A DNA stretch of 64,000 nt from Bacteroidetes bacterium RIFCSPLOWO2_12_FULL_35_15. GTDB taxonomy: Bacteria > Bacteroidota > Bacteroidia > 2-12-FULL-35-15. Numbering within the stretch: position 1 is the stretch's first letter; each line of letters begins with the position of its first letter. The stretch is from the NCBI GenBank assembly GCA_001769385.1, contig MEPB01000077.1, forward strand, positions 1 to 64,000, in the 5' to 3' direction. The position numbers and the translations under genes are program-made. Positions 10,449-55,354 of this stretch are shown piece by piece. The notes beneath the pieces were generated by a model. That model ran no database searches. It saw only the letters and a list, made by a program, of their open reading frames with translations, and was not told the DNA's origin.

Positions 10449-11219
10449 ATGAAAAAGTTAATAAATGTACAGGAAAAAGTTAAGATGCTTTTATTTTTAG
10501 TATTAATAGGTTGCTTCAGCATGACCTTTTTAAAACCAATTGCACAAAACATAAGCTACCATTTATTTGCTGATACCAGAAATCTTTTTTCTGTCCCGCA
10601 TTTCTGGAACGTTTTATCGAACTTACCTTTTTTAGTTATTGGATCTTGCGGGATGTTTTATAGTTTGTATAAAATGAAGGCTTTGATCAGATTAAATCTC
10701 CAAGTCAATTATTTCATTTTCTTTACAGGAATATTTTTAACAGGGATTGGTTCCGCTTACTATCATATAGCTCCTGATAATTCAACATTAGTATGGGACA
10801 GATTGCCAATGACAATTTCGTTCATGTCCTTTTTCTCTATCATTATTGGAGAGTTTGTTAGCCAAAAGAATCCACGTCTGATTTTATTCTCACTTTTAAC
10901 CATAGGCATCATCTCTGTAGTTTATTGGTATATCACTGAACAAAAAGGGTGTGGTGATTTACGGTTATATATTGCTGTTCAATTTTTACCACTACTCCTT
11001 ATTCCAATTATCTTATTATTGTTTAAACAAAAAGATCAGAATACAACATATATATGGTTTGTATTGCTGACATATATCTCAGCAAAAGTTTCTGAAACAT
11101 ATGATCATGAAATTTATCATGCTTTAAAATTTATCAGCGGACATTCTATCAAACATTTTTTTGCTGCTTTTGCGCCTTTGATATTTCTATATAGTATTTC
11201 TAAATTCAAAAATAATTAG
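10449..11219 (+). CDS. Ceramidase-like (CREST superfamily) seven-helix membrane hydrolase
   Basis: 256 residues, about seven membrane helices. The CREST-superfamily residues of alkaline ceramidases and PAQR receptors are in place: Ser102 and His106 in GSAYYHIAPDN, Asp117 in WDRLPMT, and His232/His236 in HSIKHFFAA. These form the metal site and polar active centre in that superfamily. The likely role is hydrolysis of a lipid amide in the inner membrane; Bacteroidota make sphingolipids, so a bacterial ceramide is a reasonable but unproven substrate. A Crp/Fnr-type palindrome lies upstream. The TAG stop overlaps the end of a miniature repeat starting at 11219. Confidence 0.75.
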   Translation: MKKLINVQEKVKMLLFLVLIGCFSMTFLKPIAQNISYHLFADTRNLFSVPHFWNVLSNLPFLVIGSCGMFYSLYKMKALIRLNLQVNYFIFFTGIFLTGIGSAYYHIAPDNSTLVWDRLPMTISFMSFFSIIIGEFVSQKNPRLILFSLLTIGIISVVYWYITEQKGCGDLRLYIAVQFLPLLLIPIILLLFKQKDQNTTYIWFVLLTYISAKVSETYDHEIYHALKFISGHSIKHFFAAFAPLIFLYSISKFKNN

Positions 11220-11240
11220 AGCCTGTTTAAATTTTTTTAG
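11219..11240. repeat. Left end of GAGCCTG miniature element (solo or truncated)
   Basis: GAGCCTGTTTAAATTTTTTTAG matches the left ends at 30426 and 55126 and is likewise preceded by TTA. No matching right end was found before 11481. The first base of the element forms the last base of the TAG stop of the upstream gene. Confidence 0.6.
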
Positions 11241-24483: not shown

Positions 24484-24549
24484 CACACTTTCTCGACTCC
24501 GCTCGAAATGACTGCGCACGGTCATTTCGAGCGGAGTCGAGAAGGTGTG
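24484..24549. repeat. Near-perfect 29-bp-arm palindrome, REP-like
   Basis: Two 29-base arms with one mismatch around an eight-base loop (TGCGCACG). The core arm is TCTCGACTCCGCTCGAAATG. It is the most complete REP-like palindrome in the window and lies in the divergent gap between the kinase and flavoprotein genes. Confidence 0.9.
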
Positions 24550-30226: not shown

Positions 30227-30615
30227 ATCTTGTTTAACAGGAGATGTCTTTCCGACCAACGTAGAGGAATCTTATATTTATTCTGATTTACAAAAAAGTA
30301 AAAAGATTTCCCGACAGCTTGAAGTAGCAAAAGCATCAATCGAGCGTGTGTCGTCAGTTCGAGTGTTTTTCTTTTCTGAAAAATGTATCGAGAACGCGCA
30401 AAACTTTGTTATGAATAAGTTCTAAGAGCCTGTTTAAATTTTAATAAAAGAATCTGATTACGATATTTTTAACCATTCTGTCATTTCGACCAAAGAGAGA
30501 AATCTCAATAAAATTATAATAAAAAAGAGATTTCTCCCTTTGGTCGAAATGACATATAAAGCATTTTGAATGAAATTTAAACAGGCTCTAAGAAATTGTA
30601 AAAATCTAACTCGGG
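30227..30615. other. Gene-free 390-bp spacer holding nested repeats
   Basis: No supported gene. It holds a partial REP-like segment (30240-30310) and a complete miniature element with an internal REP palindrome (30426-30588), between convergent genes. Confidence 0.7.
30426..30588. mobile_element. GAGCCTG miniature element (MITE-like) with nested REP palindrome
   Basis: Ends GAGCCTGTTTAAATTT and AAATTTAAACAGGCTC are exact inverse copies, flanked on both sides by TAA, a three-base target duplication. Inside, at 30480-30507 and 30527-30554, lie 28-base inverted arms with one mismatch, starting TGTCATTTCGACC. Compared with the 75-base copy at 55126-55200, this copy has 88 extra bases, namely the inner palindrome. 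No transposase gene. The TNA duplication resembles that of some IS5-group elements (inference). Confidence 0.8.
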
Positions 30616-31293
30616 TTAATTCTTAGAATCGATCACTTTTCCATTTTCACACTTAATGGTGCGTGAAGGGAATTTATCAAACATCATAATATCATGAGTG
30701 GCAATAAGAACAGCCCGGCCATTTTTACTGATCTCCAGCAAAATATTCATAATCCCTTCTGATGTTTCAGGGTCGAGGTTTCCTGTTGGTTCATCTGCAA
30801 GAATTAATTCCGGATCATTCAATAAAGCGCGGGCAATAGAAACCCGTTGCTGTTCACCTCCTGAAAGCTCATGAGGCATTTTAAATCCTTTGGTATTCAA
30901 ATGTACTTTTTCCAATACATCATTTATTCGTTTTTGCATTTCCTCTTTGTCATTCCAGCCGGTTGCTTTTAAAACAAAAAGTAAATTATCATTTACACTT
31001 CTGTCAGTCAGTAATTGAAAATCCTGAAATACAATGCCTAATTTTCTACGCAAAAAAGGAATTTCTTTTGTTTTGATCTTCTTCAGATCATACCCTGCAA
31101 CAGTTGCATCTCCATCAACTAAAGGCAATTCGGAATAAAGTGTTTTCAATAAACTGCTTTTACCAGTTCCTGTTTTTCCAAGGAGATACACGAACTCGCC
31201 TTTGTCGATATTCAGCGAAACATTGGTAAGTACTAAATTATGTTTTTGAAATATGGAAACATTATTTAAATGAATGATCGTATCGAGTGCCAT
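30616..31293 (-). CDS. ftsE: FtsE-type ABC transporter ATP-binding protein
   Basis: 225 residues. Walker [14 protein letters not shown]-loop VFQDFQLL, signature [15 protein letters not shown], Walker [14 protein letters not shown], and H-loop [23 protein letters not shown] and the short C-terminus fit FtsE, which with FtsX controls peptidoglycan hydrolases at division. No ftsX is adjacent; Bacteroidota often carry ftsE apart from ftsX. It is divergent from the TPR gene at 31540. Confidence 0.88.
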
Positions 31294-55110: not shown

Positions 55111-55125
55111 ATTATTTCCATTTTA

Positions 55126-55200
55126 GAGCTTGTTTAAATTTGAGTAAAAGATTAGATTTTTAATATTTTTTACCGTTTTGAATGAAGCTTAAACAGGCTC
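55126..55200. mobile_element. Short GAGCTTG miniature element (empty form)
   Basis: 75 bases: GAGCTTGTTTAAATTT at the left, AAGCTTAAACAGGCTC at the right, flanked by TTA on both sides (three-base duplication). Same outer sequence as 30426-30588, but without its inner REP palindrome. A degenerate REP-like segment follows at about 55243-55300. Confidence 0.8.
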
Positions 55201-55354
55201 TTAATCTATCTGGTATTTTGGATGTTTTTTTAGTCAATTTTAGACCAAGGCGAGAGATCTCAAAAATCGAAAAAAAGATTCTGATTTTGGTCAAATGACA
55301 GATTTGATTTTAATCTTTCATGTAGTTTTATTTTATTTTTTAAATATTTTTATT

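Follow-up and report, generated by a model that had tools for sequence, protein, structure and literature searches.

The locus and its elements

The window, that is, the whole stretch of 64,000 nucleotides analyzed here, represents contig C77 of a draft genome of 5.39 Mb in 110 contigs and carries two members of a single family of miniature transposable elements (MITEs), along with a solitary left end of the same kind (Table 1). The two elements, denoted 30426 and 55126 after their first positions, share the GAGCCTGTTTAAA ends, with the terminal sequences GAGCYTGTTTAAA...TTTAAACAGGCTC, and each is bounded by an exact TNA duplication (TAA on both sides of the former and TTA on both sides of the latter), as had been noticed in a preliminary description of this DNA. 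The layout given there holds in its other parts as well: the left portions of the two copies align over the first 55 bases (75% identity), the longer copy has 88 extra bases (163 minus 75), and it encompasses a palindrome with arms of 28 nt that are 96% complementary. The folding z-score of the entire 30426 element against dinucleotide shuffles is -11.5.

Table 1. Transposon-related features of the window (positions in the window; a slash separates the target duplication from the element)
Feature	Position	Strand	Basis
Solo left end, TTA/GAGCCTGTTTAAATTT, at the stop codon of ORF 10449-11219	11216-11234	+	
Target duplication TAA, left	30423-30425	.	
A-type MITE, 163 bp, REP-like palindrome between IS5-type ends	30426-30588	+	
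Left IS-derived end; 35-bp register common to the autonomous IS and other MITEs	30426-30460	+	End profile
Nested REP-like palindrome, boundary TGTCATTTCGACC...GGTCGAAATGACA	30479-30554	+	Same boundary in stand-alone copies, the flanks of which are unrelated
Palindrome arms in the 30426 element	30479-30506 / 30527-30554		
Right IS-derived end, GAGCCTGTTTAAATTTCATTCAAAATGCTTTATAT on the minus strand	30554-30588	-	End profile
Target duplication TAA, right	30589-30591	.	
Target duplication TTA, left	55123-55125	.	
55126 MITE copy, 75 bp, internally deleted	55126-55200	+	Lacks the palindrome and ~16 bp of the right end, between TTTTG direct repeats
Target duplication TTA, right	55201-55203	.	

The half copy previously reported at 11219 amounts to a single left-end match, for which a right partner end was sought and not found; the first base of this solo end completes the TAG stop codon of the adjoining ORF (11216-11219). 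The interval 30227-30622, between convergent genes, contains, in addition to the MITE, a decayed GTCTTTCCGACC unit and a B-like REP unit (30346-30399) that has matches in many congeners. A decayed A-type palindrome (GTCAATTTTAGACC...GGTCAAATGAC; 55233-55299) lies ~30 bp outside the 55126 element.

In the relative G024, the two convergent genes of the 30426 locus are 3 bp apart and the whole interval 30227-30622 is absent, and ten joined flank pairs compared with seven congeners gave no match spanning the joint. These comparisons thus yielded no clean empty site of a whole MITE.

A family of elements with common ends

A search of the genome for the ends, which the preliminary description had proposed, gives 92 occurrences of GAGCCTGTTTAAA with at most one mismatch, compared to 4 for a reversed-pattern control, so the ends are abundant beyond chance. 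Two-ended copies with equal 3-bp flanks in the window's genome fall into several types, including A (~163 bp, with the core GTCATTTCGACC...GAGAAATCTC), B (204-241 bp, with GGTTGTCAGTTCGAGTAGCCTTCC in the core) and C (201-211 bp, with GCTCCTAACGGAGC and GTCCCGGAGGGAC in the core). The collection assembled from the window's genome, its congeners and other Bacteroidota comprises 73 distinct elements that have both ends and the same 3 bp on either side; the duplication fits TNA in 71 of these 73, equality of the flanks but not their composition being the selection criterion. The ends are conserved up to position 35 (72%), and conservation falls to 35% at position 36 (54 ends from 27 element types). 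The 30426 element and its relatives are short (163 bp in this case), non-coding (without a substantial ORF) and present in many copies, and they possess terminal inverted repeats and a target duplication of constant length. Judged by its ends, duplications, size, copy number and the partner insertion sequence (IS) described below, the element is a MITE.

The Flavobacteriaceae metagenome-assembled genome (MAG) Im510_bin53 (L258, L263 and other loci) contains dozens of such ends in elements of ~190 bp with a non-REP core, many of them located at contig ends.

The autonomous partner

Searching 36 genomes of the window's genus for DUF4096 gave four loci. The preliminary description also proposed looking for an IS that shares the ends and the TNA duplications of the MITEs, and the congener G020 has one. 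On contig C12 of that genome lies an intact member of the IS5 family, 863 bp long, with the ends GAGCCTGTTTAAAT/GAGCCTGTTTAAAA and TAA on both sides, that is, a 3-bp duplication; its single ORF encodes an intact DDE transposase of 252 aa that matches NF033580 (IS5 family, E 1.9e-53) as well as PF13340/PF01609. Relics in other congeners are 79-93% identical to this element. The best plasmid-borne relatives are less than 50% identical, so the G020 element seems to be unnamed. By its transposase matches, the partner element is a member of the IS5 family. Elements of the IS1031 group have a single ORF and three-nucleotide insertion sites (PMC2516522), and the label "IS1031-like" is used here solely in reference to the single ORF and the 3-bp duplication.

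The MITEs and the IS have ~35 bp in common at each end and nothing in common inside. Comparison of the cores with the IS interior gave only short chance matches, and an origin of the MITE interiors from a deleted IS interior was rejected for this lack of homology. Several other transposase loci were rejected as the parent: the DDE_Tnp_1 matches on contigs C8 and C20 of the window's genome have no matching ends, nor did the scan around the PF13340 match in G034 show any, the scan around the G008 match gave only unrelated pairs, and that of the G005 locus gave no pairs. In the window's genome, no match to the DUF4096 domain and no intact transposase of the G020 type were found; several of the 110 contigs terminate within elements of this kind, which makes a collapsed IS copy possible.

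From the common ends, we infer that 30426 is a non-autonomous MITE moved in trans by an IS5-family (IS1031-like) transposase, which would recognize only the ~35-bp end, GAGCCTGTTTAAATTTTATTnAAA...TTAT.

Palindromic cores inside and outside of the ends

Across Bacteroidota (Tenacibaculum, Chryseobacterium and the window's genus), a total of 27 non-redundant cores lie between these 35-bp ends. The median folding z-score of these cores is -4.3, with values near 0 for most of the flanks; several cores, among them those from Im510_bin53, Chryseobacterium sp. YIM B08800 and G008 (contig C11), are not REP-like or are barely structured. In addition to the A, B and C types, the cores include CAGGTCGCTCCTACGGAGC and TTCGACAGGCTCAATATGACC in G008, GTCATCCCGAACTTTT and TTTCTCGACTTCGCTCGAAATGAC in G017, TATGCATCTTTTTGG...CTCGTTTCGCTC in G013 and G021, GTCATTCTGAATTTATTTCAGAATC in Tenacibaculum piscium, TGTCAATTCGAGTG...TATCGAGAA in T. 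finnmarkense, and TGTCATTTTGAGCGAAACGAAG in Chryseobacterium defluvii.

At least five palindrome types also occur alone, without MITE ends. Stand-alone palindromes of the A type are found in the window's genome on contigs C60 (three times), C10 and C26; stand-alone relatives without ends exist for the core types B, C, E, F and I; and the window itself contains a stand-alone palindrome of the F family (CACACTTTCTCGACTCCGCTCGAAATGAC...) at 24484-24549. Because most cores fold strongly and at least five types also occur alone, the original view, in which a miniature transposable element with TNA duplications harbors a REP-like unit, is not only right for 30426 but general. These sequences are repeated extragenic palindromes that stand alone in many places, as REPs do. 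A GTAG or CGTC tag is absent from the palindrome foot (the A type starts with TGTCATTTCGACC) and no RAYT genes were found as neighbors of the palindromes, and for these reasons we speak of REP-like palindromes only.

In A palindromes, a longer variant that includes a CTCCTTCGACTTTGCTCAGGATAAACTCCGGGAG-like stretch often takes the place of one of the two arms (loci L015, L020, L027 and L073), which gives the impression of an arm exchange between palindrome families.

Short copies as deletion products

In about 12 intact or nearly intact A-type copies from the window's genome, the palindrome occupies one and the same junction; the copies in the congener G021 show the same architecture, with the palindrome in the same place and 76-77% identity over the full length. 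When ten or so short copies are aligned to the intact ones, at least eight different junctions become apparent, and stubs of the palindrome arms are retained in 6 of 10: TGTCA/GAAATGACA (C88:40504), TGTCAT/TGACA (C97), TGTCACT/TGACT (C14), a longer remnant (C70:87495), and ATTTCGA (C70:21130 and C49:121546), where slashes mark the junctions. The 55126 junction lies between TTTTG repeats (CGTTTTG/TCATT... and ...GCATTTTG/AATG), and the lost segment comprises, besides the palindrome, ATATAAAGCATTTT (~16 bp), a part of the IS-derived right end that is absent from stand-alone palindromes. The left half of 55126 is nearest to two filled copies, C94:21363 (93%, with about five tandem palindromes) and C70:189383 (96%).

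By these alignments, 55126 is a deletion product that has lost the palindrome, rather than a pre-insertion form. The preliminary description had taken it for the empty form of the element, and the pattern that the genome-wide copies display, a constant inner palindrome with the short form derived by deletion, is the one that it had itself set against this reading. Its broader proposal, that REP-like units spread as separate elements, draws support from palindromes of the same families that stand alone among unrelated flanks; the filled and empty pair provides no evidence for the entry of a REP into the element, given that the short copies appear to be independent deletions. More generally, short and long forms of an element need not correspond to empty and filled sites, tempting as this inference is.

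Evolutionary scenario

The explanation that we consider very probable is an IS5-type MITE chassis with a REP-like core, mobilized in trans, the short copies of which are later deletions. The interior of the A-type lineage, a REP-like palindrome and not an IS sequence, would have been acquired once, either before the divergence of the window's species and G021 or before an exchange between them, and then copied along with the element. The 55126 element and the other short copies would derive from later, separate hairpin deletions, probably through replication slippage, either across short direct repeats or inside the palindrome itself. There would have been one core capture per element type, and both the insertion of a palindrome into the element and the closing of the ends around a palindrome are possible routes. 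The association of these ends with many other, unrelated palindromic cores makes the family appear as interchangeable REP-like cores in one chassis. Several observations weigh against this explanation: the failure to find an intact transposase of this type in the window's genome or a clean empty site of a whole MITE in the relatives, the short copy C19:203091 with its nearly clean junction, and the cores that are not REP-like or are barely structured.

A serious alternative, although not the one we favor, is that the cores were exchanged through repeated insertion of REP-like units into MITE interiors as a preferred landing place, perhaps by HuH tyrosine transposases (RAYT/TnpA-REP). The presence of many unrelated palindromes in a common chassis and the occurrence of the core families E and F also on their own speak for this mechanism, and the window's genome encodes Y1 transposases, some of which match Bacteroidetes subclass 2.6 in their motif pattern, a subclass described as having atypical structures (PMC6006769). 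However, no A, B or C palindromes were found within ~1.5 kb of the Y1 transposase genes in this genome, and inverted-repeat scans of two RAYT-like loci gave at most one weak pair; moreover, the spacing between end and core differs among the core types (35-55 bp), and a palindrome-free precursor with a contiguous interior is known for no type.

The reverse direction, in which stand-alone palindromes are decayed MITEs that have lost their ends, appears improbable: although the B, C and G cores occur mostly or only within the ends, the A and F palindromes that occur alone are sharply bounded, with unrelated sequence on either side and no trace of the ends, and the F palindromes, abundant alone in congeners, are found in only a few MITEs, in G017. 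Least credible of all is the first interpretation, in which a separately mobile REP entered a pre-existing short MITE with 55126 as the pre-insertion form, because, even if the short copy C19:203091 (CATTCGGATATAATAC), taken alone, can be read as a nearly clean empty site and stand-alone palindromes keep the same sharp boundary, the multiple junctions and arm stubs among the short copies, the loss of ATATAAAGCATTTT from 55126 and the filled state of its closest relatives all argue against it. The shared boundary does indicate that the palindrome dispersed separately at some time, and an earlier single insertion of a palindrome into the ancestral MITE is possible.

Returning to the trans-mobilized chassis, we suggest, quite tentatively and with considerable doubt, that IS5-type MITE ends serve across Bacteroidota as a general vehicle by which REP-like palindromes are captured, exchanged and dispersed time and again. 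If so, this would be a second route of palindrome spread, besides the HuH (RAYT) transposases. The manner in which extragenic palindromes spread and the reason for the coexistence of so many families are an open question, and Bacteroidota are almost undescribed in this respect; with one IS5-type end, many cores and an autonomous element at hand, the pick-up and dispersal of palindromes by transposon ends becomes testable.

Relationship to known systems

In the open-access literature searched, we found neither this element nor exchangeable REP cores in IS5-type MITEs. The elements described here resemble the IS-derived bacterial MITEs, such as RUP, NEMIS/Correia, ERIC and Nezha, in being short and non-coding, with IS-type ends, a target duplication and many copies. 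The Correia/NEMIS elements, too, exist in full and internally deleted forms. The BOX elements of pneumococcus contain, between their ends, inner modules in varying number; an A-type element at C94:21363-21865, in which the TAA-flanked ends enclose a tandem array of 4.9 palindrome units of 85 bp each (96% matches; L079:1417-1829), is comparable to these in architecture. As with the IS982-derived MITE of Cardinium (PMC9769881) and others, the parental IS is recognizable by its ends, and here it has the features of the IS5 family, IS1031-like group, namely, one ORF, a length of ~0.86 kb, a DDE transposase (NF033580) and a 3-bp duplication. Unlike in all these IS-derived MITEs, a single set of ends is combined here with numerous unrelated palindromic cores, which have an independent existence as well.

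The nearest published remark concerns REP dimers, GTAG-15 in A. variabilis and CGTC-1 in H. neapolitanus, that lie within longer palindromes (PMC3733652). There, as here, an outer inverted repeat, itself not seen free, regularly encloses a palindromic repeat. The outer repeat of those dimers has not been identified as a transposon end, whereas that of the present family is an end of the IS5 type, accompanied by target duplications, an autonomous partner and variable cores.
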